NCBI GenBank assembly: GCA_937919795.1
Contig: CALFOA010000291.1
Span: 1-13,157, forward strand
Length of the DNA stretch: 13,157 nt
Origin: an uncultured Neisseria sp.
GTDB lineage: Bacteria > Pseudomonadota > Gammaproteobacteria > Burkholderiales > Neisseriaceae
Direction: 5' to 3'
Under the pieces are notes generated by a model. It did not search any database, was not told the DNA's origin, and saw only the letters and a program-made list of their open reading frames with translations. Numbering within the stretch: the stretch's first letter is position 1; every line of letters begins with the position of its first letter. Of the stretch, positions 1 through 13,157 are shown piece after piece. A program made the position numbers and the translations under genes.

Positions 1-2
1 CC

Positions 3-1346
3 GGAGATGCCAGCTGGAGCAGCGTGGATGGTCGTTTCCCTCCTCAATTGGAAGCAGCATCGGCGCAGCTGGCGCTGGTTTGGGAGGCTTTCCAGTCCGC
101 GCTGGCGCAGACCGAAGCTGCTGCTGCAGACGACGCCGCTCCTCTGCCCACGGTGCCTGTCTGGGCCGATGAAATTCGCGTGGCCCGTGGCCTGCCACCT
201 GAGGCAGCGCCTGTGGAAGCCGTCAAGCCCGCTGCCCGTGCAGCTGCTGCAGGTCGCGGCAAGCCTTCGCCCGAGCAAGTGGAAGCTGCCAAGGCTGCCT
301 TGGGTCAGGCTTTGCAGGCACTGAAGGAAGAAACGGCGGCTGGTAACAGCAAGGCCGGTTCTGCTGCTGTGCAAGCTCTGCGCGCTGCCATCAAGACGCA
401 TGGCCGTTTTGTCGAAGAGGCCCTGGTCGCAGAAGTGCACGAAGCCCTGCTGGCTGCGGGTGAAGCCGACGGCTGGCAGCGTCAGAATGCAGACAAGCTG
501 CGTGAAGAGCTGGTGGCCAAGGCCGAAGCTTTGCTCAACCGTCCCGAAGGTCAGGCTCTGGGTGGTCGCAAGATTCAGGAAACCCTGCGCAGCCTGCGCG
601 AGCAGTGGAAGCAAGCCGACCAGGGCGCCATGGCCAACCACGCTCTGTGGAAGAAGTTTGACGAGGCCTGCAACGCTGCCTACAAGGTGGTCGAGTCCTG
701 GCACGACAAGATCCGCCAGGACAGCACGCAGGCCAAGGCCCAGCGCATGGCTCTGATCGAAGAGATCAAGGCCTGGGCTGCAGAGCATTCGGCCAGCCAG
801 GACTGGAAGAGCATGTTGCGCGCGCTGCGCCAGTTTGGTGAGCGCTGGCGTGAAAGCGGCCATATCGGCGAAAAGCTGTTTGCCGAACTGATGCAGGTGG
901 CCGGCCGCGCCGGTCGCGCCGATGCCGCCGGGCGGGTGTTGATTCAAACCCAGTTGCCCGAGCATCCGGTGTTCGCCGCCGTGCAAAGCCAGCAATATCC
1001 CGCTTTTGCCGAACACGAATTGGCCGAACGCCGCCTGTTTGCCATGCCGCCGTTTGCCTTTCAGGCCGCCATCCGCGCCGATGCACCAAGCATCGAGCAG
1101 GCGCGGGATTTTTTGGCCGACCTCAAAGCGCTGGCCGAACCGCAACTGGCACCCGATGTATCGCTGCTGGGGCCGGTGCCGATGTTTATGCAGCGGCTGG
1201 CCGGCCGTGAACGCGCCCAAGTGTTTCTCGAATCACCGTCGCGCAAAAATCTGCACCGCGCCGCTGCGCTGTGGCTGCATTTATTGCAAAGCAGTCGAGA
1301 CAGCCAGATACGTTGGTCGATTGATATCGATCCGTTGGAAATGTAG
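3..1346 (+). CDS. Chimeric ORF: DUF349 protein fused in frame to the PriA C-terminus (5' partial)
   Basis: The frame is open from the window edge, so the true start lies upstream; the GTG at 24 is merely the first possible start inside the window. The first ~285 codons give an Ala/Glu-rich, helical protein with tryptophan-containing DUF349-type repeats (LREQWKQADQGAMANHALW, then WKKFDEACNAAY). DUF349 proteins have no settled function. The sequence style (Ala-rich, high GC, CTG/AAG codons) resembles Burkholderiales such as Comamonadaceae. From the codons for LFAELMQVAGRAGR (about 879 onward) the protein becomes the end of PriA helicase. A fusion protein would contain only helicase motif VI and the PriA tail, with no ATPase core, so it should have no helicase activity. 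I think this is a misjoined contig or recombination scar; the in-frame join may be chance. Confidence 0.75.
   Translation, partial: GDASWSSVDGRFPPQLEAASAQLALVWEAFQSALAQTEAAAADDAAPLPTVPVWADEIRVARGLPPEAAPVEAVKPAARAAAAGRGKPSPEQVEAAKAALGQALQALKEETAAGNSKAGSAAVQALRAAIKTHGRFVEEALVAEVHEALLAAGEADGWQRQNADKLREELVAKAEALLNRPEGQALGGRKIQETLRSLREQWKQADQGAMANHALWKKFDEACNAAYKVVESWHDKIRQDSTQAKAQRMALIEEIKAWAAEHSASQDWKSMLRALRQFGERWRESGHIGEKLFAELMQVAGRAGRADAAGRVLIQTQLPEHPVFAAVQSQQYPAFAEHELAERRLFAMPPFAFQAAIRADAPSIEQARDFLADLKALAEPQLAPDVSLLGPVPMFMQRLAGRERAQVFLESPSRKNLHRAAALWLHLLQSSRDSQIRWSIDIDPLEM
879..1346 (+). pseudogene. priA: priA 3' fragment (primosomal replication restart helicase, C-terminal part only)
   Basis: The ~155 residues match the end of PriA, the superfamily 2 DNA helicase that reloads the replisome at stalled forks. 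QVAGRAGR is helicase motif VI. It is followed by VLIQTQLPEHPVF, the AFAEHELAERR block, the LLGPVP motif and the family's typical ending, a basic/aromatic strand running into DIDP-L/I-E. This lines up segment by segment with the end of E. coli PriA as I remember it. The Walker motifs, DEAH box, zinc-binding region and DNA-binding domain are absent; what lies upstream is an unrelated DUF349 sequence. Either the rest of priA lies elsewhere in the true genome and the contig is misjoined, or the gene was truncated by recombination. An uptake sequence overlaps the region just after the stop. Confidence 0.85.
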
Positions 1347-1347
1347 T

Positions 1348-1359
1348 TTCAGACAGGCA
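1348..1359 (-). repeat. DNA uptake sequence, TGCCTGTCTGAA on the minus strand
   Basis: Exact 12/12 copy (TTCAGACAGGCA on the plus strand), two bases after the priA stop codon. It faces a second exact copy at 1508-1519, so the two frame the palindromic repeat between them. Confidence 0.9.
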
Positions 1360-1388
1360 TTTTTTAGTACGGTTTGCACACTCAGCTA

Positions 1389-1467
1389 CGTCATACTCGG
1401 GCTTGACCCGAGTATCCCGCCTTTACTTAGGAATAAAAAGATACTCGGGTCAAGCCCGAGTATGACG
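1389..1467. repeat. Palindromic intergenic element: 28-bp perfect inverted repeat, each arm itself a palindrome
   Basis: Bases 1389-1416 and 1440-1467 are exact reverse complements over 28 bp, separated by a 23-base AT-rich spacer. Each arm is also a hairpin: ATACTCGGG, five-base loop CTTGA, CCCGAGTAT. The single-stranded form can therefore fold as one long hairpin or as two small ones. It lies between priA and the EamA gene and between two inverted uptake sequences. A diverged relative with a similar spacer (ACTTAAAGA-like) lies at 5211-5277 and, through the later duplication, at 5961-6027. It resembles in style the short dispersed palindromes of Neisseria genomes such as dRS3, but the sequence differs. 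It may also act as a bidirectional transcription stop, although a T-run is lacking. Confidence 0.75.
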
Positions 1468-1507
1468 CAGGTTGTAATGAATCAAATGGCAGGTTTTCCC
1501 CAGCTTA

Positions 1508-1519
1508 TGCCTGTCTGAA
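1508..1519 (+). repeat. DNA uptake sequence, exact copy
   Basis: TGCCTGTCTGAA, 12/12, 29 bases before the start codon of the EamA-family gene. It is inverted relative to the copy at 1348-1359. Confidence 0.9.
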
Positions 1520-1548
1520 ACCCCTTCACCCTCAAATAAAAGACCACC

Positions 1549-2457
1549 ATGACTTCTTCCTCCAGCTATCCTTACCATCTGCGCCTGCTCGGCATGGCCG
1601 TTATCTGGGGTGCGTCTTGGCCGTGGGGGCGGGTGGTGGCGCAAAGCATGCCGCCGCTCACCGGCGCGGCTTTACGCTTCCTGCTGGCGGGCATCGCCTT
1701 GCTGGTGTGGTTGTTGTCCGCCCAAGGCACTGCGCCGCTGCGGCGCTTGAGCGGCGCGCAGTGGCTGGGTTTGAGCGCGGCGGCGGCCAGCGGCATTTGT
1801 GCGTATGCGGTGTTTTTTATGTACGGACTGCAAAGCGTGGCCGCCGGGCGCGCTTCGGTGGTGGTGGCCTTGAATCCGGTGCTCACCTTGCTGCTGGCGG
1901 CCTGGCTGTTTCGCGAACGGCTCAATCTCGGCATTGTGCTGGGGATGTTGTTAGCCGTGATCGGCGCGTTGACGGCGATTACCCAAGGCCATCCGTTGCA
2001 AATACTCAATGGCGGCATGGGGCGGGGCGAATTGCTGTTGCTGGGCTGCGTGGTGAGTTGGTCGGCCTATACTTTGCTTGGCCGTAAAGTGTTAAAAGGC
2101 ATTGATGCGCTCACCGCGACCACGGTGGCGGCGGTGTTGGGTTCGCTGATGTTGTTGCTGGCCGCAGCTTGGATTGAAGGCGTGGCGGGCTGGCAACAGG
2201 TATTCTCCGCGCCGCTAAAGGCTTGGGTGAGCATTGCGGCGTTGGCGTTTGGTGCCACCACACTGTCTTATTCTTGGTATTTCCGCGGCGTGCAGCACTT
2301 GGGCGTTGGCGTGGCGGCGGCTTATATCGTGTTGGTGCCGATTTTCGGCATCCTTTCTTCCGCGCTGATGTTGGGCGAACCGCTACACGCCTCGCTGGCT
2401 TGGGGCGGCTTGCTGGCTGCCGGCGGCATGATGTGGATGAATCTGGCGCGCCGTTGA
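1549..2457 (+). CDS. EamA-family (drug/metabolite transporter superfamily) inner-membrane permease
   Basis: This is a 302-residue, very hydrophobic protein of the usual EamA length, with about ten predicted membrane helices arranged as two EamA repeats (roughly residues 12-140 and 158-297). Typical family features include the first-helix block AVIWGASWPWGRVVA, the AALRFLLAGIALLVW helix 2, FFMYGLQSVAAGRASVVVALNPV in the first repeat, and its second-repeat counterpart GVQHLGVGVAAAYIVLVPIF. Members export or import amino acids, metabolites or drugs, but substrate cannot be read from the sequence. The ATG at 1549 follows only a weak purine stretch (AAAAGA). The gene stands alone, with repeats on its left and a ~215-bp non-coding stretch on its right, so it is probably monocistronic. 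RhaT/YdcZ-like names are possible; I do not assign one. Confidence 0.9.
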   Translation: MTSSSSYPYHLRLLGMAVIWGASWPWGRVVAQSMPPLTGAALRFLLAGIALLVWLLSAQGTAPLRRLSGAQWLGLSAAAASGICAYAVFFMYGLQSVAAGRASVVVALNPVLTLLLAAWLFRERLNLGIVLGMLLAVIGALTAITQGHPLQILNGGMGRGELLLLGCVVSWSAYTLLGRKVLKGIDALTATTVAAVLGSLMLLLAAAWIEGVAGWQQVFSAPLKAWVSIAALAFGATTLSYSWYFRGVQHLGVGVAAAYIVLVPIFGILSSALMLGEPLHASLAWGGLLAAGGMMWMNLARR

Positions 2458-2673
2458 TTGAATGAGGTGGCAGCAGATTAACGCGTGAAAGGGTTGATTC
2501 GACTGTCACACACTCCCTTCCCCGTGGGGAGAGGCAAAACGATCTTGCTTCCATAACGGTTCAAAATACCAAGCTTCCACTACCGCCTCTCAATCTTTCA
2601 GACAGGCATTTATCTTTTCAGCATCAAAATCATTTAAAATAACAAACTGTCTTTCAAATGAATAAAAAACAAA
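2458..2673. other. Intergenic stretch between the EamA gene and dacB
   Basis: No gene is supported here. It holds a short imperfect C-rich/G-rich hairpin around 2513-2535 (CCCC then GGGG), without a T-run, and one minus-strand uptake sequence at 2597-2608. The part after 2610 is AT-rich. I see no convincing -35/-10 pair for dacB. Confidence 0.5.
2597..2608 (-). repeat. DNA uptake sequence, exact copy on the minus strand
   Basis: TTCAGACAGGCA on the plus strand, 12/12. It pairs in inverted orientation with the copy at 2686-2697 that overlaps the dacB start region. Confidence 0.9.
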
Positions 2674-2685
2674 ATGAACTCACTA

Positions 2686-2697
2686 TGCCTGTCTGAA
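2686..2697 (+). repeat. DNA uptake sequence overlapping the dacB start region
   Basis: TGCCTGTCTGAA, 12/12, running directly into an A8 run (2696-2703). The 12-mer lies where the N-terminus of the dacB signal peptide should begin, which makes the start codon hard to place. Confidence 0.9.
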
Positions 2698-2728
2698 AAA
2701 AAACATCCGCCGCAGTTTTGCCGCGCTA

Positions 2729-4108
2729 TTGTGTTGCCTGCCCCTTGCCGCTTTTGCACTGGATACCGGCAAAATTGCACCGCAGGAAATCGCGGTGTAT
2801 GTGCAGGATATGCAAACCGGCCAAGTGTTGGAAGCCCACCGTGCCGATGTGTCTATGCAGCCCGCTTCTGTGATGAAGCTGGTGACCACATTTGCCGCTT
2901 TGCGCGCACTGGGGCCGGATTTCAGTTGGCAGACCGAATTTAAGAGCAACGCGCCGGTTCGCAACGGCGTATTGGAAGGTGATGTTTATTGGGTGGGCAG
3001 CGGCAATCCGGTGTTCGACCAGAAAGACGTACTGCAAATGCAACAGCAAATGCGTGCGCAAGGTATTCAGCATATCCGCGGCCAGCTGGTGTTTGACGAC
3101 AGCGTTTGGAGCAGCAACGGCAGTGCCGATGATTTCGAGAGCGATGCCGGTGAAACCTTCGCCACCCCGCCCAGCCCGCACATGCTGGCGTATAAAGTGG
3201 TGTGGGCGAAAGCCATCCGCAATCCCTTGGGCGACATCGCTTTTGAAACCAATCCGCCGCTGCCCGCTATTCCTCATCAGATCGACGTACAAAGTGGTGG
3301 CCTCGGCAACTGTACTTCGCTGAAAAACTACGTTTCCGCCGCCTACCGCAGTGGCGTGCTGCATTTCAACGGCAAGTTGCCGGATAGTTGCCTCGGCAGC
3401 GAAATGTTTATCAATATGCTGGATATGGATGAGTTTGCCAGCCAGAGTTTTATCAACCAGTGGCGCAGCGGCGGCGAAATGGCCGACGGCTACCGCGCAG
3501 GGAAAGCACCTGCCCGTGTGCAAACACTGGCCAGCCACCGCTCGCCGCCTTTATCGCAGGTGTTGCGCGATATGAACAAGAATTCCAATAATGTGATTGC
3601 CCGCAGCCTGTTCCTCACCTTGGGTGCACAGCGGGCAGGGCAGCAAACCGTGCAAAACGCCCGCGCCGAAGTGCGCCGCGAATTGGTAGCGGCAGGATTG
3701 GACGACGAAGCGCTCAATCTGGAAAACGGCTCTGGCTTATCACGTCGCGAACGCGCCACCGCCCGTATGCTGGGCGAAATGTTGTCTGTTGCCTGGAAAT
3801 CACCTTTCAGACAGGCATTTATCGACAGCCTGCCGATAGGCGGAGTGGACGGCACTTTAAAAAGCCGTTTTGCCGCGCCCAATCAAAACGGCCGCTTTTA
3901 TCTGAAAACCGGCACCCTCGATAATGTGCGCGCGTTGGCAGGTTACTGGTTGCCTGCCAACAGCAGCGAAGGTAACCCGCTGGCGGTGGTGGTAATGGTG
4001 AACAGCAAACAGGCCAAGCAGTATTTAGGTGAGATGGATAAAGTAGTCGGCCGGGTGGTTACAAATAAGCTGCCGGCCGTTATCGACACCGGAATATCCG
4101 ATTTCTAA
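2729..4108 (+). CDS. dacB: D-alanyl-D-alanine carboxypeptidase/endopeptidase (PBP4-type, serine peptidase family S13)
   Basis: This periplasmic penicillin-binding protein trims or cleaves peptidoglycan cross-link peptides. Counting from the TTG at 2729, all three active-site motifs are present: S-V-M-K with nucleophile Ser47 and Lys50, S-N-N at 286-288, and K-T-G at 393-395. The family block GGVDGTLKSRF precedes KTG. The length of about 460-470 residues suits the Neisseria PBP3/DacB family. The start is uncertain. From TTG the signal peptide would be only ~10 residues with no basic end. The same frame extends upstream through KKNIRRSFAALLCC, a proper signal peptide, but offers only a CTG at 2693 before a TGA at 2675. 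An ATG at 2674 would join this frame if the A8 run at 2696-2703 lost one A. An exact uptake sequence lies inside the gene at 3806-3817 without breaking the frame. Confidence 0.9.
   Translation: MCCLPLAAFALDTGKIAPQEIAVYVQDMQTGQVLEAHRADVSMQPASVMKLVTTFAALRALGPDFSWQTEFKSNAPVRNGVLEGDVYWVGSGNPVFDQKDVLQMQQQMRAQGIQHIRGQLVFDDSVWSSNGSADDFESDAGETFATPPSPHMLAYKVVWAKAIRNPLGDIAFETNPPLPAIPHQIDVQSGGLGNCTSLKNYVSAAYRSGVLHFNGKLPDSCLGSEMFINMLDMDEFASQSFINQWRSGGEMADGYRAGKAPARVQTLASHRSPPLSQVLRDMNKNSNNVIARSLFLTLGAQRAGQQTVQNARAEVRRELVAAGLDDEALNLENGSGLSRRERATARMLGEMLSVAWKSPFRQAFIDSLPIGGVDGTLKSRFAAPNQNGRFYLKTGTLDNVRALAGYWLPANSSEGNPLAVVVMVNSKQAKQYLGEMDKVVGRVVTNKLPAVIDTGISDF
3806..3817 (-). repeat. DNA uptake sequence inside dacB
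   Basis: TTCAGACAGGCA on the plus strand, 12/12, read in frame as part of SPFRQAF. It shows that the element is tolerated within coding sequence. Confidence 0.9.
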
Positions 4109-4325
4109 ACCGCATAAACTGTATAAAATCAGTAGAATATGTTGGGGAGATGAATCGGCAGCAGAATAAAATTCACCTAGCCGCTTGCAAAACTTTATCC
4201 TGCTCCCCATATTTGTCATAATTCGTAGTCGTCATTAAAACCATACTAACAAGTTTTGTTGCACAGTTTTAGAATCATTCACTGAAGCGGTTGCACAAAA
4301 CCACCACTCATTATTTGGAGATGTC

Positions 4326-4589
4326 ATGCAAACCGTAACCCTGTATTCCGGCCCTTATTGCCCTTACTGCACAATGGCCAAACAACTTTTAAACCAAATC
4401 GGTGTCACCGAAATCGTTGAAATCAAAGAAAAAGACGATCCGGAAGCGTTTCGTGCCATGCGCGAAGCCACCGGTACCCGCAGCGTGCCGCAAATTTTTA
4501 TCGGCGAAACCCACATCGGCGGTTTCGATGATACTTATGCCCTGCATAAAAAAGGCGAGTTGTTGCCACTTTTGAATCTGGGCGAGTAA
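4326..4589 (+). CDS. grxC: Glutaredoxin 3 (glutathione-dependent dithiol oxidoreductase)
   Basis: This is an 87-residue cytoplasmic thioredoxin-fold protein that reduces disulfides and glutathione mixed disulfides using glutathione. The dithiol active site C-P-Y-C is at residues 12-15, the cis-proline loop T-R-S-V-P-Q at 51-56, and the glutathione-binding G-G-F-D-D at 65-69. Length is standard for bacterial GrxC. The ATG at 4326 follows GGAG at the right distance. It lies 64 bp upstream of secB on the same strand with no terminator between them (only a small GCCGC/GCGGC hairpin without a T-run), so the two are probably co-transcribed. This grxC-secB pairing is common in proteobacteria. Confidence 0.95.
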   Translation: MQTVTLYSGPYCPYCTMAKQLLNQIGVTEIVEIKEKDDPEAFRAMREATGTRSVPQIFIGETHIGGFDDTYALHKKGELLPLLNLGE

Positions 4590-4653
4590 ACCCGTTTCCC
4601 TTTCCTGCCGCCCACCAGCGGCTCAAACCCTCTTTACTTAAAGCGAGATAAAT

Positions 4654-5118
4654 ATGAGCGAACAAGATCAAGTCGCAACCGAAGCACAAACCGAAGCGCA
4701 ACCCGTATTCAGCATCGAAAAACTGTACGTTAAAGATTTGTCATTGGAAGTGCCGCACGCTCCGCAAGTTTTCCTGGAAAACACCGATCCCAATGTTGAT
4801 ATGCGCGTGGCCACCGAAAGCCAAAAGTTGGAAGACGAATTCTACGAAGTAAGCGTTACCGTTACTGTTACCGCTAAATTGGCCGACGAACGCGTGATGT
4901 TCCTCAACGAAGTTACCCAAAGCGGCATTTTCCGCTTGGCCGGTATCCCGGACGAAGACGTACAACTCTTGCTGGCCGTAGCCTGCCCGAACATCCTGTT
5001 CCCGTATGCGCGCGAAACCATTTCTTCAACCATTACCCGCGCAGGCTTCCCGCCGGTATTGCTGGCTCCGATTAACTTCGAAGCGCTCTACCAGCAACAA
5101 CAGCAACAAAATGCTTGA
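4654..5118 (+). CDS. secB: Protein-export chaperone SecB
   Basis: This is a 154-residue acidic cytosolic chaperone, the same length class as E. coli SecB (155). As a homotetramer the family keeps precursor proteins unfolded and hands them to SecA for Sec export. Family blocks are clear: [20 protein letters not shown] near residues 19-38, [18 protein letters not shown] around 96-113, then [20 protein letters not shown] and [11 protein letters not shown] near the C-terminus. The tail is a run of glutamines (QQQQQQNA). The ATG at 4654 has a purine-rich AAAGCGAGA upstream. The gene is followed at once by a strong terminator framed by uptake sequences. Its last ~35 codons and the terminator are the left end of the tandem duplication that starts at 5015. 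Confidence 0.97.
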
Positions 5119-5122
5119 TTGA

Positions 5123-5134
5123 TGCCTGTCTGAA
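5123..5134 (+). repeat. DNA uptake sequence, left half of the terminator-flanking pair
   Basis: TGCCTGTCTGAA, 12/12, four bases after the secB stop codon. It faces the inverted copy at 5175-5186. Confidence 0.9.
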
Positions 5135-5168
5135 AAAAACGCCCGATTTTTATCGGGCATTTTTTTTG
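5133..5168 (+). terminator. Rho-independent terminator of (grxC-)secB
   Basis: Stem GCCCGAT (5141-5147), loop TTTT, stem ATCGGGC (5152-5158), then a T-run to 5167. A-run on the left and T-run on the right extend the stem. The uptake sequences on both sides can lengthen the hairpin further, a layout common in Neisseria. Confidence 0.9.
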
Positions 5169-5174
5169 CTCTTT

Positions 5175-5186
5175 TTCAGACAGGCA
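5175..5186 (-). repeat. DNA uptake sequence, right half of the terminator-flanking pair
   Basis: TTCAGACAGGCA on the plus strand, 12/12, inverted relative to 5123-5134. Confidence 0.9.
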
Positions 5187-5210
5187 TTTACTAATCGTAT
5201 GATTTATTCT

Positions 5211-5277
5211 GTGATGCTTGGGTTAACCCGAGTGTTTTGTACTTAAAGAGGAAATACAGGGATAACCCCTAGAATGC
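5211..5277. repeat. Degenerate copy of the palindromic element seen at 1389-1467
   Basis: The order matches the intact element: an arm like TGGGTTAACCCGAGT, an AT-rich spacer with TACTTAAAGAGGAA, then ATACAGGGATAACCCC and AGAATG. Arms are mutated, so the long hairpin is weak. It abuts an uptake sequence at 5275-5286. Confidence 0.6.
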
Positions 5278-5286
5278 CTGTCTGAA
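5275..5286 (+). repeat. DNA uptake sequence in copy A
   Basis: TGCCTGTCTGAA, 12/12. The matching place in copy B has lost this site. Confidence 0.9.
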
Positions 5287-5300
5287 ACGGGTAGCTGTTG

Positions 5301-5361
5301 ATGACAAAAAACGGCAAAGCATTTGCTAGAAGTGGCTGGTAAATGACGAAAAATGGCAGAA
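5301..5361 (+). promoter_or_regulatory. Paired 19-bp direct repeats upstream of the -24/-12 promoter (candidate activator site, copy A)
   Basis: ATGACAAAAAACGGCAAAG at 5301-5319 and ATGACGAAAAATGGCAGAA at 5343-5361 match at 15 of 19 positions and start 42 bp apart, four helical turns. Both are kept in copy B. They sit about 130-190 bp upstream of the promoter, where an enhancer-binding activator such as PilR would bind for a sigma-54 promoter. The role is inferred from position only. Confidence 0.4.
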
Positions 5362-5475: not shown

Positions 5476-5493
5476 TTGGCACGCAATATGCTT
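5476..5493 (+). promoter_or_regulatory. Putative sigma-54 (-24/-12) promoter of micro-pilin ORF A
   Basis: TTGGCACGCAATATGCTT has the -24 GG (5478-5479) and -12 GC (5490-5491) with exact family spacing, and TGGCACG is the consensus core; the -12 element is ATGC rather than TTGC. It is unchanged in copy B although bases around it differ. Start of transcription would be near 5503, leaving a leader of about 225 nt. Sigma-54 promoters are well known for pilin genes in other bacteria. Confidence 0.6.
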
Positions 5494-5552
5494 GAATATT
5501 ATTATCTGTAAGAAATAACCGAATAACGGAACTACAGATACTTGAAAAAAAC

Positions 5553-5685
5553 CTGGCCGGATACGTTCGGGAAAACGCAAAGCCAAGTCTATTAAGGCAA
5601 AAAAAACAGGCCAAATACATTACGGGAATCAAAAACAGGCCAAACACATTGCGGAAAACAGCAGTACATTGCGGGCTAAAAATAA
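5553..5685 (+). repeat. Imperfect direct repeats in the transcribed leader, copy A
   Basis: Units begin at 5553 (CTGGCCGGATACGTTCGGG), 5607 (CAGGCCAAATACATTACGGG), 5636 (CAGGCCAAACACATTGCGG) and, shortened, 5662 (CAGTACATTGCGGG). The last three are spaced 29 and 26 bp. They lie between the promoter and the micro-pilin start, so they would be in the RNA. Role unknown. Confidence 0.55.
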
Positions 5686-5728
5686 AAAAATCAATCAATT
5701 AAAATAGATTTTAAAGAAAGAAAAAATT

Positions 5729-5821
5729 ATGAAAGCAATTAAAAAGGGGTACTCGTTGGCAGAATTATCAATGGTGGTTCTGATCGTGAGTATGGTGTCG
5801 TATTTGGTGGTACCGTCATAA
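5729..5821 (+). CDS. Micro-pilin ORF A: 30-residue type IV prepilin-like peptide
   Basis: The 30-codon ORF encodes a 7-residue basic leader (MKAIKKG), then YSLAELSMVVLIV and a hydrophobic helix ending in P-S and a stop. Aligned with type IV prepilins, the Gly is the PilD cleavage site, the mature Glu is at +5 and a Pro at +22, the same places as in PilE. If cut, the mature peptide would have 23 residues and no globular domain. Tyr instead of Phe/Met at +1 is unusual but known to be tolerated in pseudopilins. An AAAGAAAG stretch upstream is a weak ribosome site. A -24/-12 promoter lies ~240 bp upstream and a copied terminator ~70 bp downstream, so it could form its own transcription unit. It may instead be a pilin gene cut short by rearrangement. 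Expression is not shown. Confidence 0.55.
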   Translation: MKAIKKGYSLAELSMVVLIVSMVSYLVVPS

Positions 5822-5876
5822 AACCATTGCTTCAATGATTACTTGCGCCGGCTTCTACCAGCAACAGCAAGCTTGA
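5821..5876 (+). pseudogene. secB 3'-end remnant in copy B
   Basis: Bases 5821-5855 match secB 5015-5049 at 29 of 35 positions, then jump across a 39-bp gap to the TACCAGCAACAGCAA tail and the GCTTGA stop. Both gaps are multiples of three, so the leftover still reads TIASMITCAGFYQQQQA and stop in the secB frame. It has no start of its own and is not expected to make a protein. Confidence 0.75.
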
Positions 5877-5880
5877 TTGA

Positions 5881-5892
5881 GGCCTGTCTGAA
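5881..5892 (+). repeat. Variant DNA uptake sequence GGCCTGTCTGAA
   Basis: 11/12, first base T to G. Its partner at 5926-5937 carries the matching change, so the terminator pair changed on both sides together. Confidence 0.75.
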
Positions 5893-5927
5893 AAAAAAAC
5901 GCCCGATTTTTATCGGGTGTTTTTTTT
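5893..5927 (+). terminator. Rho-independent terminator, duplicate of the secB terminator
   Basis: Stem GCCCGAT (5901-5907), TTTT loop, ATCGGG (5912-5917) and a T-run to 5927, preceded by an A9 run. It now lies downstream of micro-pilin ORF A and would end that transcript. Confidence 0.85.
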
Positions 5928-5937
5928 CAGACAGGCC
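5926..5937 (-). repeat. Variant DNA uptake sequence, inverted partner
   Basis: TTCAGACAGGCC on the plus strand (GGCCTGTCTGAA on the minus), 11/12. Confidence 0.75.
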
Positions 5938-5960
5938 TTTGTAATGCGATATGACTTATT

Positions 5961-6027
5961 TCATTCTACTCGGGCCAGGCCCGATATTTTTGTGCTTAAA
6001 GGAGAGATCGGGTTAAGCCCGCAATAA
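5961..6027. repeat. Degenerate palindromic element in copy B
   Basis: TACTCGGGCCAGGCCCGATAT, then TGTGCTTAAAGGAGAGA, then ATCGGGTTAAGCCCG, the same order as the intact element at 1389-1467. It is homologous to 5211-5277 through the duplication. Confidence 0.6.
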
Positions 6028-6038
6028 ACCTCCGTTTT

Positions 6039-6100
6039 ATGACAAAAAGCGGCAAAGCATTTGCTAGAAAATGGCAGGTGCATGACGAAAAATGGCAGAA
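6039..6100 (+). promoter_or_regulatory. Paired direct repeats upstream of the -24/-12 promoter (copy B)
   Basis: ATGACAAAAAGCGGCAAAG at 6039-6057 and ATGACGAAAAATGGCAGAA at 6082-6100, start to start 43 bp. The second unit is identical to that in copy A. Confidence 0.4.
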
Positions 6101-6214
6101 ATATAAATTGGGTTATCACAAATTGACACTTCTGAATAACTATTCCAAATTTGTTTTGTTTTAAAAACGTATAAAAAACAAATAATTGTGTGATTTTTTG
6201 AATAATTTTAAAAG

Positions 6215-6232
6215 TTGGCACGCAATATGCTT
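6215..6232 (+). promoter_or_regulatory. Putative sigma-54 (-24/-12) promoter of micro-pilin ORF B
   Basis: TTGGCACGCAATATGCTT, identical to the copy A site, with -24 GG at 6217-6218 and -12 GC at 6229-6230. The bases just before and after it differ between copies. Confidence 0.6.
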
Positions 6233-6291
6233 GAGTATTATTGTCTGTAAGAAATAACCGAATAACGGAGCTGCAGATACTTGAAAAAAAC

Positions 6292-6420
6292 CTGGCCAAA
6301 TACGTTAGGGAAAACGCAAAGCCAAGTCTATCAAGATAAGAAAAAAACAGGCCAAACATGTTACGGGAATCAAAAAACAGGCCAAACACATTGCGGAAAA
6401 CAGTAGCACATTACGGGCTA
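6292..6420 (+). repeat. Imperfect direct repeats in the transcribed leader, copy B
   Basis: Units begin at 6292 (CTGGCCAAATACGTTAGGG), 6348 (CAGGCCAAACATGTTACGGG), 6378 (CAGGCCAAACACATTGCGG) and, shortened, near 6401. Same layout as copy A. Confidence 0.55.
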
Positions 6421-6468
6421 AAAATAAAAAATCAACTAACTAAAATAGATTTTAAAGAAAGAAAAATT

Positions 6469-6561
6469 ATGAAAGCAATTAAAAAGGGGTACTCGTTGGC
6501 AGAATTATCAATGGTGGTTCTGATCGTGAGTATGGTGTCGTATTTGGTGGTACCGTCATAA
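6469..6561 (+). CDS. Micro-pilin ORF B: 30-residue type IV prepilin-like peptide, identical to ORF A
   Basis: All 93 bases match ORF A and the ~30 bases before the start differ only by one A. The prepilin leader, Gly/Tyr cleavage site, Glu at +5 and Pro at +22 are therefore the same. The frame happens to stay open upstream to an ATG at 6358, but that extension is not kept in copy A and would bury the prepilin leader, so I use the ATG at 6469. Downstream, the same frame has TAA and TGA stops and then 53 open codons (6568-6726) that do not resemble a pilin body. This transcript would probably end at the hairpin at 6738-6777. Confidence 0.55.
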   Translation: MKAIKKGYSLAELSMVVLIVSMVSYLVVPS

Positions 6562-6582: not shown

Positions 6583-6729
6583 TTGAATGATCGCATCACT
6601 TTAGACCGTCACCAAAAAAAGCCCGCCAATGTGCGTAAGCGTCAGCAGCAGTATGCAGACGTGCATGGGCGTTCGATGCAAGCTGCTCCCGGCAAATTAA
6701 AGGGAAAGCTGGACGGCAGAATGCAGTAA
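6583..6729 (+). CDS. Small unrecognised ORF or gene remnant
   Basis: About 48 codons from a possible TTG start encode a basic, Gln/Lys/Arg-rich peptide (for example NVRKRQQQYADVHGRSMQ and GKLKGKLDGRMQ). It has no clear ribosome site and no family I recognise. It shares the frame of micro-pilin ORF B past two stop codons and is followed at once by a strong terminator, which suggests it is the tail of a once longer gene. It could be a chance ORF. Confidence 0.2.
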   Translation: MNDRITLDRHQKKPANVRKRQQQYADVHGRSMQAAPGKLKGKLDGRMQ

Positions 6730-6737
6730 TAGCCGAG

Positions 6738-6777
6738 CACCTTGTATACCGATGTATACAAGGTGTCTTTTTTATTT
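6738..6777 (+). terminator. Rho-independent terminator
   Basis: Perfect 12-bp stem CACCTTGTATAC (6738-6749) and GTATACAAGGTG (6754-6765), four-base loop, then TCTTTTTTATTT. It closes the transcription unit of micro-pilin copy B and the small ORF. Confidence 0.85.
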
Positions 6778-7258
6778 AGTTTCAAAAGTAACTAATGTTT
6801 GGGTTATAGTTTGTCGCGCTTTTGGCCAACAAATCTGCCGATTTTATGTGGGGAGCAGAATGGTAATGAGCGCAGATAGAAATCTGGATGGTGGTTTTGT
6901 TAGTGAGATTAAAATGCCAATATAGTTATATGCAATTAAGATTAATGTATGACTAATTGATGAGGTTACAATTTTGCTTTAAAATTTTCTATAATGTCAT
7001 TTTATGTCAAGAAAATAACAAGGGGCGGGGTGTTGTAAGCGTTTTTAAAGGCTGAGTAAGTGGTTTTGTTGGAAGACAGTTACAACAGTTTAACGTAGAG
7101 AGCACTAAGGTAGTGATAACCAAGAAAAGTAAAGGTTGTCGACTGAAAATCTAAAGAACAGAGCGCGTTGAAGGACAAGCAGAAAGCGGTCGGTCACTCT
7201 CAGCTTCATTAACGGAGTTGGTGTGATGAAAAATATTCAATAAAATAAAGGTATTGCA
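6778..7258. other. Non-coding region and 5' leader before the adhesin
   Basis: No gene is supported in this stretch. The left part is AT-rich and holds the likely adhesin promoter; from about 7000 to 7258 it would be transcribed as a leader of about 260 nt. A five-codon ORF (ATG AAA AAT ATT CAA TAA) starts at 7226 behind GGAG and ends 16 bases before the adhesin start. It could be a tiny leader peptide or chance. No uptake sequence is present. Confidence 0.4.
6966..6995 (+). promoter_or_regulatory. Possible sigma-70 promoter for the adhesin
   Basis: A perfect -10 box TATAAT (6990-6995) follows a weak -35 candidate TTACAA (6966-6971) after 18 bp, in a strongly AT-rich setting. Transcription would begin near 7002, some 257 nt before the start codon. 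Confidence 0.4.
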
Positions 7259-10200
7259 ATGAATAAGATTTATCGTACGGTTTATAACGAAACAACAAAC
7301 ACGTGGGTGGCAGTAGCTGAAATTTCTACCGCTAAGGGGAAAAGCAACAGCCGCGATGTAGTGGCTACTGCTGTTGAGTCTGCCGAATCTTCAATATTCC
7401 GTTTCTCTCCCCGCAGTCTGCTGATGGCGATTGTTGGGGCATTTACGTTGTTGACCGGGCAGGCGTATGCCGCAAACGGTGCAACAATAACGACTGCCGG
7501 TAGCGGAACCACCCAAAATGCACCGATTATTGTCAGTACTGGTATAACTTCGACTGATGTAACCACAGGCTCAGGAGGCGCAACACTTACTGCGTATAAT
7601 TTTGGTGCTATGCTGAATGATACTAACAATCCAAGCAATCCAGCGCAAACAGGAGCGGTCAGCGGTATCTGGAATACCCGGCCCGCTTATGGTTTAGTTG
7701 TAGGTAATAACGCCACCGCAAACAACTTTGCGGGCTTGGCATTCGGCGGCGCTGCCACTGCCACCGGCGGGGGGGCCACTGCTTTAGGCGGTTGGTCGAA
7801 TGCCACCGGTCCTTCCAGTGTAGCCATCGGCCTTGCTGCACTCGCCAAGGGTAACGGTTCTTTGGCAATGATGCGGCAATCGGCCGCAACCGGTGCACAA
7901 TCCATGGCAATCGGATCTTCAGCGCAGGCCACCGTAAATGGAGCCATCGCAGTGGGGCAGTCAGCTGCTGCAACAGGTGTACAATCGCTTGCTATAGGCA
8001 CATCAGACACTGGTGCTGCCGGTAATAACACTTATGATGGAACTACCAATACCAAAGCCAGCGGCTTAAAATCTATCGCCTTGGGTGCGGGTGCCAATGC
8101 CGGCGCAGAAAAAGCGATTGCCATCGGTGCCGGTGCACAAGCCACGGCTACCCAGTCTATTTCCGTCGGTGTGGGTAATGTGGTTTCCGGTGCTAACTCC
8201 GGTGCGTTCGGCGACCCATCCTATGTTTCAGGTACCGGTACTTATACCTTAGGTAATGATAATGGTACGGCAGCCGCCCCAATTGCGGCGAATAACGCCG
8301 GTGCATTCGGTAATAATAACGCCATGACTGCCGCTGCTTCAGGCAGCCGTATTGTCGGCAACAGTAACAACGTACAATCTGCCAACGCGATGGTGATGGG
8401 CAACAATGTCACCGTCGGCACAGGCTTGGATGGAGCGGTGGTATTGGGTAATAACTCTACCGTCTCTGCTTCAACCCCTACTAATAGCGCCACTGTCAAC
8501 GGCATTAGCTACAGTGGCTTCGCCGGTAGCACTCCCACAGCAGGCGGAGTGGTGTCGGTAGGTTCTGCTGCAGCACCGCGTCAAATCCAAAATGTGGCCG
8601 CAGGTCGTGTGACCGCTGATTCCACCGATGCCATCAACGGCAGCCAGCTTTATGCCGGTTTACAACAAGCTCAATATCATTATTTCAGCGTTAATCCGAC
8701 TTACAATGTTCGTACTAATTCGGATGCAACCAATTACACCAATCAAGGAGCCACCGGTGCACGAGCTATGGCAATCGGTTATTCTGCCTCGGCCACGGAT
8801 ACTAACGCTGTTGCAGTGGGTCCTGAGGCAGTAGCATCTGGAAACAACAGTGCTGCTTTTGGTGCGGGTGCCCAAGCCACAGCAACTGCGGCGAGTGCGT
8901 TTGGTATGAATAGCCGGGCAAACGGTACTTACAGCACTGCATTCGGTTTTCAAGCAAATGCAGGCACCAATTGGGGCACGGCTTTTGGTTACAATGCACA
9001 AGCGACCGGAAATAATTCACCGTTGGCTGTGGGTACCCAAACTTTGTCTACCGGCGGCAGCTCAGTTGCAATCGGTGACTGGGCTACAGCCACGGCTGAC
9101 CGTGCCATTGCTTTGGGTGCTCAAGCAGGTGGAACGCATACGGCAGGCGGTGCAACTCATGCATCGGGTGTGGATAGTATCGCCATCGGTACCAAAGCAC
9201 AATCGACTGCCTATAACGCGATTGCAATCGGTAATCAAGCCACAGCTTCCCGAGCAGGAGATGTAGCTCTGGGTGCCAACAGTGTATCGGCTGCGCCTCA
9301 TACCGGTAATTTTACTTTGAACAATAGCTATACTGCTGCCGCTACCGCGCCGACCAGTGTGGTGTCTGTCGGTAATGTCGGTAGCGAGCGCCAGATTCAG
9401 AATGTGGCTGCGGGCGTCCTTAGTGCCACCAGTACCGATGCCATCAACGGCAGTCAGCTTTATGGGGTGGCTAATGATTTACAAAATAAAATCAATGGTA
9501 TTGGCGGTAGTCATTATGTCAGCATAAGAAGTAACCTCAGTGGAGCCGGCACCAACTATAACAATGATGGAGCTACCGGCAATAATGCTATAGCAGTAGG
9601 TTTGCGTGCTGCATCAGCAGGTGTAGATGGATTGGCGGTTGGTGTCGATACTGCAGCCAGTGGTAATCAATCTGTAGCGTTGGGTACCGCGGCTAAAGCA
9701 CAAAATGTAGGTACAACTGCACTTGGTAATGGTGCTATATCCAGCGGAGACAGTGCTGTGGCCATTGGTAGAAGCGTAACGGCCAGCGGTGAAGAAGCAA
9801 CTGCGGTGGGTAGAACCAGTACTGCAGCTGGTGCTCGGTCAATTGCTTTAGGTAAGTCGGCTAGTGCCGCTTCAGGGGATGCGATTACTATTGGTACGGG
9901 CGCGACCGTTGAAAAGGCTACCAGCACCAGCGCGATTGTGATTGGTAATGGTGCAAAAGCCACTTCTTCTACCACTTCTACAACAGATGAGGGTAAGGAT
10001 GTGGTGGCTATCGGTTATTTGGCTCAGGCAGGCGCATCAAGCAATATCGCTTTGGGTTCACAAGCCAAAGCCAGTGGTAATGCACAAGCAACTGCCATCG
10101 GCTACAACACCAATGCGCAGGGGTATCAGTCCATAGCTTTGGGTTCCGGAGCCAGTACCACCGCCGGTGGAGGTAGTAGTGTGGCGCTTGGTCGTGACGC

Positions 10201-13157
10201 GGTCGCTTCACATGGCAATGCTGTGGCTTTGGGTAGTGGATCCACTACTTCTTTAGCTGTGGGTACCGCCTCTGCCGCCGTCGGTGGTACCACTTACAGC
10301 GGTTTTGCCGGTACAACTCCAAACTCGACTGTCAGCATCGGTTCGGCTGGGAATGAGCGTACTCTCACTAACGTGGCAGCAGGCCGTATTACCTCTGCTT
10401 CCACTGATGCCATCAACGGCAGCCAATTGTTTGCCGTGGCTTCCCAATTGCAAGCAGGTCAAACGCATTATTACAGCGTGAATGATAATGGTGTACGCGG
10501 CAGTAACTACAACAATAACGGTGCAACCGGTGCGAATGCCTTGGCGGCTGGTATTAACGCCAGCGCAGCCGGCAATGATTCGGTTTCGATGGGCTATGTT
10601 ACCCAAGCCAATGCGGAAGGTTCTGTATCGGTCGGCTCTCATAACACCACAAATGGTGTTACTTCTGTTGCCGTTGGCCATACCGCCAATACCGCCGCAG
10701 ATGCCACCAATGCCGTTTCGATGGGTTTCTCCACCAACGCCAATGCAAAAGATTCCGTATCGGTTGGTTATAAAACCACCAGCGCGGGCGAGTCTTCTGT
10801 GGCGATGGGTTTCGATTCAGCCGCTAATGGTCGTTTATCTATGGCGGTTGGTAGAAGTGCGCAAACTACCGCTAATGCGGAAGCGGCGGTTGCTATGGGT
10901 GTGAGTGCTAATGCCAATGCAAAAGATTCCGTATCCATCGGTTACAACACCATCAGTAATGCGGTTTCCTCTACCGCAGTAGGTGTTTCCTCTACCGCTA
11001 ATGCTGCTGAATCCGTTGCAATGGGACGATCTGCCGCAACTTCAAGCAACGCAACTAATGCAGTTTCTGTCGGTTATTACAGCAACGCCAACGCTGCCGA
11101 TTCCGTATCTGTTGGCTTTAAAACCACCAGCGACGGTACCAATTCTGCTGCCGTCGGCCAAACCGCTGTGGCCAAAGGAAATAATTCCGTCTCTTTCGGC
11201 TCTTCAACCACTGCTAATGCGGATACTTCCGTCGCAATGGGTCGTTCTGCCACCACTGCCGCCGGTGCAACCAATGCCGTTTCAGTGGGTGTTAATACCA
11301 ACGCCAACGCTTTAGATGCCGTATCTGTGGGTCGTTCAACTACTGCTGCGGCAGAAGCAGCGACTGCTATGGGTTCCGCCACCACAGCCAATGGTAGCAA
11401 TTCTGTTGCAATGGGTTCTAGCTCTATTGCCAATGGTGCCAGCTCAACGGCAATCGGCCGCCAAGCAACTACCGCAGCTACCGCCAATAATGCCGTATCC
11501 GTTGGTTTCCAAACCAGTGCCAATGCGGCAGATTCTATAGCAGTAGGTCGCGGTGCTAATACGGCAGCGGCTGCTACATACGCTACGGCAGTTGGTCATA
11601 CCGCCAGAGCCAATGAGCAGCATGCACTTGCCATCGGTTCTTCTTCGACCGCCAATGGCGCCTCTTCTACTGCCATTGGCCGCTTAGCTACCGCCAGTGG
11701 TCGGGCAGCAACAGCGTTGGGTACGAATGTGCAAGCAACAGCTGCCACCTCAGTAGCCATTGGTTCTAATACTACTGCCGATAAAGAGAATTCTGTTGCC
11801 TTAGGTTCCAACAGTACTACCGTGGGTCAAGCTGCCGAACAAATCAATTCTGCCAATGTTAATGGTATTGTTTATTCTGGCTTCCAAGGTGAAGAAAATA
11901 TCATCAGTGGTGATTTTGTTTCTATAGGTTCAGTTGGCCAAGAACGTCAACTGAAAAACCTAGCCCCCGGTGCAATTACCGCAACCAGTACAGATGCCAT
12001 CAACGGCAGCCAGTTGTATGCCGTGGCTTCCGAATTGCAAGCAGGTCAAACGCATTATTACAGCGTGAATGATGGTGGTATTCGCGGCAATAATTACACC
12101 AATAATGGCGCCACCGGCACCAATTCAATGGCTGCCGGTGTCGGTGCTGCTGCCTCTGCCCTAAATACTACCGCAATCGGCCATTTAGCTAATGCTTCTG
12201 CCAATAATGCCACCGCTGTGGGTAACAATACGGAGGCTTCTTTCAAGGATGCGGTTGCGATTGGTGAAAGTGCTAAGGCAACTGCAGACAGCACGGTAGC
12301 TTTGGGTAAAAACGCTAATGCGGGCAGCGATTATGCAGTTTCCATCGGTTTGGATTCTCAGGCCAGTGGTAATGGTGCTGTGTCTTTGGGTTCTGGTGCG
12401 GTTTCCAGTGCCAGAAGCGCCACCGCTATTGGTAATGATGCACAGGCCAGCGTACAACGTGCAACCGCTGTTGGTAATTTGGCCAACGCATCCGAAGAAG
12501 ATGCCGCCGCTTTTGGCCGTTTGGCACACGCTTCGGCTAACCGAGCACTGGCTTTAGGCTCAGAAAGTAACGCGCTTAATGCTAACGATGTGGCGCTGGG
12601 TGCCGGTTCCGTTACCGCTGCCGCAGTACCGACCACTTCAGCCACTGTCGGCGATGTGACTTACAACGGTTTTGCCGGTACTGCCCCCAACTCAACCGTC
12701 AGCATCGGTTCTGCCGGTAACGAGCGTACCCTGACCAACGTGGCAGCCGGTCGTATTCAAGCCGACTCCACTGATGCCATCAACGGTAGCCAATTGTACG
12801 CTGTCGCCAACAAACCCATCACCTTCTCGGGTGACAGCGGCGGTGATGTGGATCGTATTCTCGGCCAAAAACTAGAAATCAACGGCGGCGCGACCGGTGA
12901 ATTGTCGAACAACAACATTGGTGTGGTTGCCAACGGTACCGATACGCTGAACATCCAATTGGCCAAAGAGTTGACCGATTTGACCAGCGCCCAGTTTGTG
13001 GACGCCGCCGGTAACAGCACCACCGTTGGCGGCAACGGTATCAACATCACCCCTGCCAACGGCAACCCGGTAAGCCTGTCTGAAAGCGGTCTTAACAACG
13101 GCGGTAACGTGATTTCCGGCGTAGCCGAAGGTCAGGCCGGTACCGATGCGGTGAACG
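7259..13157 (+). CDS. Trimeric autotransporter adhesin, YadA-like multi-head (3' partial)
   Basis: One uninterrupted frame of ~1,966 codons runs off the window. The ATG at 7259 follows AAAGGT. Residues 1-29 match the extended signal peptide region (MNKIYRTVYNETTNTWVAVA), followed by a hydrophobic stretch and a likely signal peptidase cut after AYA (residue 71). The passenger is made of ~14-16-residue YadA-head repeats (S-x-A-I/M/L-G and variants) that form left-handed beta-rolls. Five neck motifs of the type NVAAG...STDAINGSQLY start near residues 441, 711, 1034, 1563 and 1823; most are preceded by a YSGFAG-type insert, and four are followed by HYYSVN...GATG, which opens the next head. After the fifth neck come a stalk-type domain (GDSGGDVDRILGQ, NNIGVV) and the start of a sixth neck (NNGGNVISGVAEG). 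Such proteins reach the outer membrane as trimers and bind host surfaces or partner cells. The YadA anchor must lie beyond the window. Confidence 0.95.
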   Translation, partial: MNKIYRTVYNETTNTWVAVAEISTAKGKSNSRDVVATAVESAESSIFRFSPRSLLMAIVGAFTLLTGQAYAANGATITTAGSGTTQNAPIIVSTGITSTDVTTGSGGATLTAYNFGAMLNDTNNPSNPAQTGAVSGIWNTRPAYGLVVGNNATANNFAGLAFGGAATATGGGATALGGWSNATGPSSVAIGLAALAKGNGSLAMMRQSAATGAQSMAIGSSAQATVNGAIAVGQSAAATGVQSLAIGTSDTGAAGNNTYDGTTNTKASGLKSIALGAGANAGAEKAIAIGAGAQATATQSISVGVGNVVSGANSGAFGDPSYVSGTGTYTLGNDNGTAAAPIAANNAGAFGNNNAMTAAASGSRIVGNSNNVQSANAMVMGNNVTVGTGLDGAVVLGNNSTVSASTPTNSATVNGISYSGFAGSTPTAGGVVSVGSAAAPRQIQNVAAGRVTADSTDAINGSQLYAGLQQAQYHYFSVNPTYNVRTNSDATNYTNQGATGARAMAIGYSASATDTNAVAVGPEAVASGNNSAAFGAGAQATATAASAFGMNSRANGTYSTAFGFQANAGTNWGTAFGYNAQATGNNSPLAVGTQTLSTGGSSVAIGDWATATADRAIALGAQAGGTHTAGGATHASGVDSIAIGTKAQSTAYNAIAIGNQATASRAGDVALGANSVSAAPHTGNFTLNNSYTAAATAPTSVVSVGNVGSERQIQNVAAGVLSATSTDAINGSQLYGVANDLQNKINGIGGSHYVSIRSNLSGAGTNYNNDGATGNNAIAVGLRAASAGVDGLAVGVDTAASGNQSVALGTAAKAQNVGTTALGNGAISSGDSAVAIGRSVTASGEEATAVGRTSTAAGARSIALGKSASAASGDAITIGTGATVEKATSTSAIVIGNGAKATSSTTSTTDEGKDVVAIGYLAQAGASSNIALGSQAKASGNAQATAIGYNTNAQGYQSIALGSGASTTAGGGSSVALGRDAVASHGNAVALGSGSTTSLAVGTASAAVGGTTYSGFAGTTPNSTVSIGSAGNERTLTNVAAGRITSASTDAINGSQLFAVASQLQAGQTHYYSVNDNGVRGSNYNNNGATGANALAAGINASAAGNDSVSMGYVTQANAEGSVSVGSHNTTNGVTSVAVGHTANTAADATNAVSMGFSTNANAKDSVSVGYKTTSAGESSVAMGFDSAANGRLSMAVGRSAQTTANAEAAVAMGVSANANAKDSVSIGYNTISNAVSSTAVGVSSTANAAESVAMGRSAATSSNATNAVSVGYYSNANAADSVSVGFKTTSDGTNSAAVGQTAVAKGNNSVSFGSSTTANADTSVAMGRSATTAAGATNAVSVGVNTNANALDAVSVGRSTTAAAEAATAMGSATTANGSNSVAMGSSSIANGASSTAIGRQATTAATANNAVSVGFQTSANAADSIAVGRGANTAAAATYATAVGHTARANEQHALAIGSSSTANGASSTAIGRLATASGRAATALGTNVQATAATSVAIGSNTTADKENSVALGSNSTTVGQAAEQINSANVNGIVYSGFQGEENIISGDFVSIGSVGQERQLKNLAPGAITATSTDAINGSQLYAVASELQAGQTHYYSVNDGGIRGNNYTNNGATGTNSMAAGVGAAASALNTTAIGHLANASANNATAVGNNTEASFKDAVAIGESAKATADSTVALGKNANAGSDYAVSIGLDSQASGNGAVSLGSGAVSSARSATAIGNDAQASVQRATAVGNLANASEEDAAAFGRLAHASANRALALGSESNALNANDVALGAGSVTAAAVPTTSATVGDVTYNGFAGTAPNSTVSIGSAGNERTLTNVAAGRIQADSTDAINGSQLYAVANKPITFSGDSGGDVDRILGQKLEINGGATGELSNNNIGVVANGTDTLNIQLAKELTDLTSAQFVDAAGNSTTVGGNGINITPANGNPVSLSESGLNNGGNVISGVAEGQAGTDAVN
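7769..7775 (+). repeat. G7 homopolymer within the adhesin reading frame
   Basis: Seven consecutive G, near codon 171, read as Gly-Gly-Gly in a YadA-head repeat. Gain or loss of one base would stop the protein early. Neisseria often uses G runs as phase-variation switches, though usually longer ones. Confidence 0.5.
13073..13084 (+). repeat. Variant DNA uptake sequence inside the adhesin
   Basis: AGCCTGTCTGAA, 11/12 (first base T to A), read in frame as part of VSLSESG. It is the only such site seen in almost 6 kb of this gene. Confidence 0.6.

Follow-up and report, generated by a model that had tools for sequence, protein, structure and literature searches.

The two short ORFs of the window (the whole 13,157-nt stretch of Neisseria DNA analysed here) raise the question of whether a prepilin N-terminus that stops just after Pro22 is a working gene or a relic of a pilin gene. 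Both ORFs (positions 5729-5821 and 6469-6561, plus strand, 93 bp each) translate into the same 30-residue peptide, MKAIKKGYSLAELSMVVLIVSMVSYLVVPS, followed by a stop. The identity of the two 93-base ORFs claimed in the first-pass annotation is thereby confirmed, and Gly −1, Glu +5 and Pro +22 are found in both, as it had stated. The model of the prepilin N-terminus (TIGR02532, NCBIfam) scores the window peptide at 18.2 bits and its counterpart in a related Neisseria genome, G032, at 20.1 bits, both above the curated cut-off of 16.3 bits; the cut-off of Pfam N_methyl (PF07963, 21.2 bits) is not reached by either, the scores being 16.0 and 20.3, respectively. The C-terminal globular domain of about 100 residues that marks a full type IV pilin is absent, as the stop follows residue 30 in both window copies and residue 31 in G032, i.e. 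one and two codons past Pro22, respectively. A PilD cleavage site is predicted from the sequence, and residue +1 of the mature micro-pilin is Tyr, which is atypical among pilins. The ribosome-binding site upstream of the micro-ORF, AAAGAAAG, is weak and lacks GGAG, in contrast to that of several pilE genes.

The search of the PDB with the micro-pilin, up to an E value of 10, gave the short Geobacter pilin 9egp as the sole match, at a non-significant E value of 0.42. The peptide found no match in phage and plasmid records, nor did the DNA of the locus in plasmids. No micro-pilin is described in the titles and abstract openings of the papers listed in searches on truncated or small pilins, pilE leaders with sRNAs, and Geobacter PilA-N, and we know of no prepilin-type protein shorter than 30 residues.

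The locus of G032 has the same order as the window, namely priA, an EamA transporter, a dacB-like gene, a glutaredoxin gene, secB, the micro-ORF and a YadA-like adhesin gene, with a single unit instead of a duplicated one. Its micro-pilin, MKSIKKGYSLAELSVVVLIVSMVAYLVVPIS, matches the window peptide with an E value of 9.4e-11 and shares 26 of 29 residues with it; among the matches listed, the next (E 8.5e-4) is a pilin-length frame. The first-pass annotation had envisaged that relatives might carry a full-length pilin at this position; G032 has the same truncated ORF there. The comparison of synonymous and non-synonymous changes that it had suggested gave 13 nucleotide differences in 29 codons (a divergence of 15%), distributed as 5, 0 and 8 over the three codon positions and leading to only three conservative amino-acid changes. 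In a neutral simulation (13 substitutions placed at random in each of 200,000 draws, kappa 2, uniform sites), a fraction of 2e-4 of the draws gave no stop and at most three amino-acid changes (P ~2e-4). These values support selection over decay for the micro-ORF as judged from one species pair. The promoter-to-ORF region aligns with that of G032 at about 80%, as does the surrounding coding DNA, and no blastn alignment with G032 was obtained for window positions 6620-7258. The 3' end of the micro-ORF bears an indel between the species (VVPS* in the window, VVPIS* in G032), and the closest full-length relative within G032, the PilE N-terminus, is only about 45% identical. Retention of this very small gene at the corresponding position in a sister species makes it likely that it functions, as a micro-protein or as an RNA, rather than being junk. 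The window and G032 showed no shared downstream partner ORF.

Repeat analysis revealed the micro-pilin locus of the window to be a tandem duplication with a unit and spacing of about 740 bp, extending from the secB 3' end through the micro-ORF stop. The stop of the first micro-ORF abuts a remnant of the secB 3' end that is shortened and carries internal deletions, followed by a second copy of the terminator-like hairpin of secB (5823-5935, plus strand). That the first transcript ends here is a guess; the hairpin scan placed the duplicated hairpin (5902-5917) solely on the minus strand, the next plus-strand candidate lying at 5970-5984. An intrinsic-terminator-like hairpin of 13 pairs (6737-6766, plus strand) was found by the terminator scan between the second micro-ORF and the YadA-like gene, and a similar hairpin was noticed by eye after the micro-ORF of G032.

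The upstream halves of the two copies differ in 64 of 440 aligned columns as compared to 0 of 93 in the ORFs, and the longest exact run between the units, 100 bases, covers the ORF, the runner-up being 31 bases long. The probability of an unchanged 93-mer at the upstream divergence rate is about 4e-7, and that of all of the approximately 20 synonymous sites being unchanged is about 0.04. The earlier statement that the surrounding DNA has drifted is thus correct and is completed by the tandem arrangement with its intervening secB remnant. Its preference for selection or gene conversion over decay can be divided: selection is supported by the G032 orthologue, whereas the complete identity of the copies is likely better accounted for by local gene conversion, with or without selection, since the synonymous sites are also unchanged between the copies yet differ from those of G032.

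Distribution of the micro-ORF is narrow. When the peptide was searched against 83 genomes of the family, 74 gave some match at E values up to 10; nearly all matches listed were ordinary pilin-length frames, G032 gave the sole strong match, and the micro-ORF was found, among the matches listed, in this one genome of the 83. Seven further short pilin-like frames were present among the matches listed, and the four inspected comprised two contig ends and two remnant-like frames with Gln at +5. At the DNA level, 21 of 46 genus genomes matched, with G032 alone at full length (80% over positions 2-522 of 522) and the remaining 20 over 23-67 bases each. In many genomes, short AT-rich matches to the DNA preceding the micro-ORF lie close to a gene that is pheS-like by eye, or to the neighbour of that gene, and were dismissed. 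The order-wide DNA search, scored on the best two candidates of each genome and evidently run on a sample lacking G032, matched 2 of 399 genomes, both with dismissed matches of this kind. A search of GTDB contigs for secB yielded at least 80 loci, L001-L005 of which are from Neisseria or Conchiformibius; tblastn of the peptide in the DNA of the 80 loci did not detect the micro-ORF, nor any pilin in L001-L005. CATTRCGG pairs were found at 35 places in 30 of the 83 genomes, the controls giving counts of a similar order, and only the two pairs of G032 at the micro-pilin locus were used. Two other Neisseria genomes (L229, L230) contain short pilin-like frames that end in GYSLIQLLVVMLLVSILAT, have Gln at +5 and look like decayed remnants.

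The region upstream of each micro-ORF resembles the control region of pilE. In copy 1, a pair of TGAC[AG]AAA boxes of upstream-activator type (5302-5358, boxes starting at 5302 and 5344, 42 bp apart) precedes a sigma-54-type promoter of GG-N10-GC form, TTGGCACGCAATATGCTT (5476-5493), and copy 2 has the same promoter sequence at 6215-6232 behind a box pair at 6040-6097 (boxes at 6040 and 6083, 43 bp apart), all on the plus strand. The counterpart promoter of the micro-ORF in G032 is TTGGCATACAGGATGCTT. In all seven units compared, the boxes are 42-43 bp apart and the first box lies 174-177 bp before the promoter; the corresponding values for the pilE of G032 itself are 43 and 164 bp. The TGAC[AG]AAA box is present in 24 of the 34 rows of the pilin search (the micro-ORF row included) as compared to 2.8% of shuffles. 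Among the 15 full-length pilin rows with at least two boxes, three (L083, L111, L112) have them 43-44 bp apart and the others 10-75 bp apart; box spacing is not a fixed trait of pilE.

In commensal Neisseria, pilE is reported to be transcribed by RpoN at a GG-N10-GC promoter, with the activator Npa acting at an upstream sequence and Nps as the sensor (PMC6528607). Both sequence features of this regulon, the GG-N10-GC promoter and upstream activator-like boxes, are present at the micro-pilin locus. Sigma54_DBD has one match each in G032 and G001, and both genomes carry, after a parC-like gene, a membrane sensor kinase gene followed by a sigma-54 activator gene, which were named nps-npa-like by eye and by order. 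As G032 and G001 each possess a second strong sigma-54 activator elsewhere, the Npa-like protein is one candidate for the activator of the locus.

The leaders also share an element with pilE. The leader of copy 1 is taken to span 5503-5728 and that of copy 2 to span 6242-6468 (plus strand), the starts being deduced from the promoters. At up to four mismatches, the 17-nt element GGCCAAAYACATTRCGG occurs twice in the first (5609-5625, 5638-5654) and three times in the second (6294-6310, 6350-6366 and 6380-6396, with 2, 2 and 0 mismatches, respectively), against a chance expectation of mean 0.016 in 2000 first-order resampled copy-1 leaders. With two or fewer mismatches, 19 of the 33 other pilin-search rows have it at a distance of 58-113 bases before the start, and all 19 also carry a sigma-54-like site. 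The rows are not independent, as related species are among them; the 14 rows without the element include a mis-framed one (L179), and some of them have a sigma-54-like site. In the genus-wide search, the element was found at up to one mismatch in 43 of 46 genomes, the reversed pattern giving two matches in all, and coordinate comparison placed at least nine of the sites among the matches listed just upstream of a pilin.

The element also occurs outside pilin genes, as 26 of 30 element loci (L116-L145) contain the sRNA-like sequence CCAAACACATTACGGGGAAAACGTCTTACTCA, often preceded by a hairpin. For the micro-pilin RNA and its ORF-less sister, no family reached its Rfam gathering score (window, L091 and L109), and none did so in the 20 loci L116-L135; L098, which is similar to the sRNA-like loci, reaches that of IR_84. 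The sibling sRNAs NmsR/NgncR are reported to sit between dsbB and lrp (PMC5362039). The shared element was rejected as a mark of these sRNAs, since the elements of L098, L103 and L105 lie in a different gene neighbourhood, flanked by lspA-like and pseudouridine-synthase-like genes (by eye). The literature searched on pilE leaders with sRNAs and on IR_84 held no description of a leader element common to pilE and several sRNA-like sequences. Such an element would make post-transcriptional pilin control directly testable in commensal species.

Four further genomes (G001, G011, G030 and G042) carry units with the box pair, the sigma-54 promoter and three to five leader elements, with no pilin ORF. 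These candidate RpoN-type RNAs (L218 2340-2850 in G001; L222, reverse strand, in G011; L220 1620-2130 in G042; L221 1547-2060 in G030) share two flanking genes, one M23-peptidase-like (by eye) and one starting MYEVNR, and end in a terminator-like hairpin (by eye). When searched in the 46 genus genomes, the G011 version was detected along its length in G011, G030 and G042, partially in G001, and not in G032; in none of these 46 genomes were the ORF-less type and the micro-pilin type found together. As these sisters show, the RNA can exist without the peptide, and no other observation weighs more heavily against a reading based on the peptide alone. The first-pass annotation had overlooked the pilE-type control region, the repeats of the leader element and the sister RNAs that lack the ORF, and it is because of these that a function at the RNA level comes into view.

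The reading that we prefer, with somewhat less than even confidence, is that the locus is a real and selected gene of the pilE regulon whose small RpoN-type transcript also encodes a mimic of the pilin transmembrane helix. RpoN together with an enhancer-binding activator, presumably of Npa type, would drive a short transcript with several pilE-leader elements and, at its end, the frame for a prepilin of 30-31 residues. The peptide, if translated, would insert as a single transmembrane helix, and cleavage by PilD after Gly7 would leave a helix of 23-24 residues with E5 and P22 and no globular head. This helix would most likely mimic unassembled pilin of the inner membrane, chiefly towards the sensor kinase Nps as its putative target, and thereby trim pilE expression. 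In addition, the reiterated elements of the leader may sequester whatever factor binds to that of pilE. PMC6528607, citing Kilmury and Burrows 2016, gives Arg24 of PilS and Glu5 and Pro22 of PilA as important for the PilS-PilA interaction and states that Nps and PilE of Neisseria possess these residues. The retention of E5 and P22, the stop one or two codons further on and the pilE-type promoter favour a sensor-directed mimic over a structural role. Feedback on a sensor of the Nps/PilS type would suit the retained residues at least as well as the earlier proposal that the helix dopes, caps or blocks the pilus machine. The micro-pilin would thus offer a natural helix-only test of pilin sensing by PilS-type kinases. 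In an extended form, which we consider rather unlikely, the RNA would have a dual function, its leader elements acting as an RNA decoy and the helix of 23-24 residues as a ligand mimic telling Nps that the membrane is full of pilin; if true, pilus output would be tuned at two levels from one promoter type.

The locus has partial parallels among known systems. With Neisseria pilE under RpoN/Nps/Npa, as described in PMC6528607, it shares the GG-N10-GC promoter, upstream boxes, leader element and prepilin N-terminus, and it differs in having several leader elements and a product that ends shortly after Pro22, without the globular domain. The Geobacter geopilin domain 1 protein (9egp) is likewise a short prepilin consisting mainly of the N-terminal helix, although its chain has 69 residues as compared to 30 in the micro-pilin. 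The single-helix peptide MgrB acts on the membrane kinase PhoQ, as is proposed here for the micro-pilin; no homology is claimed, and the micro-pilin, unlike MgrB, would mimic the kinase's own ligand. The dual-function RNAs SgrS/SgrT also combine a regulatory RNA part, possible in the present case, with a short ORF, whereas the present locus has sigma-54-type control, repeated pilE-leader elements and a membrane peptide, and its RNA activity is putative.

Given the weak ribosome-binding site and the existence of ORF-less sisters, a function of the RNA alone is a serious rival, which we hold to be possible but on the unlikely side. The product would then be a small RNA transcribed under RpoN, with repeated elements that titrate some partner of the leader of pilE, and the pilin-like ORF would be a passenger derived from the pilE 5' end; the occurrence of the element in the sRNA-like sequence and the separation of ORF-less and micro-pilin types in different genomes agree with this. 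The synonymous-biased change and intact frame in G032 argue against it, as does the 100-base exact run covering the ORF, which far exceeds every other unchanged stretch between the copies; moreover, the copy-2 leader is not unusually structured, its folding being no better than that of shuffles (z −0.69). Functionless decay of a pilE duplicate which has lost its 3' part and whose copies are kept alike by gene conversion appears improbable. The indel at the truncation point, the narrow distribution and the remnant-like frames of L229 and L230 are compatible with decay, but there is little amino-acid change despite the 15% nucleotide divergence, G032 has no full-length relative closer than 45%, and the promoter geometry is preserved between the window and G032.

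A direct action of the peptide on the pilus machine, whether it is built into or caps the base of the fibre or instead occupies PilD or the assembly platform, was the idea of the first-pass annotation and is now considered quite improbable. It draws on the complete prepilin cleavage site, E5 and helix, all read from sequence, and on the alteration of envelope signalling by a truncated, though far longer, PilA in P. aeruginosa, as reported in PMC3684759; however, nothing separates this reading from the sensor model. An assembly artefact joining the loci of two strains into a false duplication is very improbable. The left end of the contig may be a chimeric join, since a DUF349 protein (bases 1 to about 870) is joined in frame to a C-terminal portion of PriA within window positions 1-905, where priA continues in G032. 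There is no step in G+C content at this end of the window, and the suspected join lies more than 4 kb from the micro-pilin ORFs. The secB tail between the copies has internal deletions, which are not expected from the intact secB of another strain, and G032 independently shows the single unit.

Some other features of the window were recorded. A gene for a YadA-like trimeric autotransporter with an ESPR signal occupies 7259-13157 and runs past the window end, and a similar gene follows the micro-ORF of G032. Eight exact occurrences of TGCCTGTCTGAA, which we take to be a DNA-uptake-type word, are found at 1348-5286, the chance expectation being a mean of 0.01. The intergenic stretch 1393-1463 contains a perfect inverted repeat of ACTCGGGTCAAGCCCGAGTAT, possibly a small mobile repeat, and a similar stretch is present in L109 near 9080-9160.
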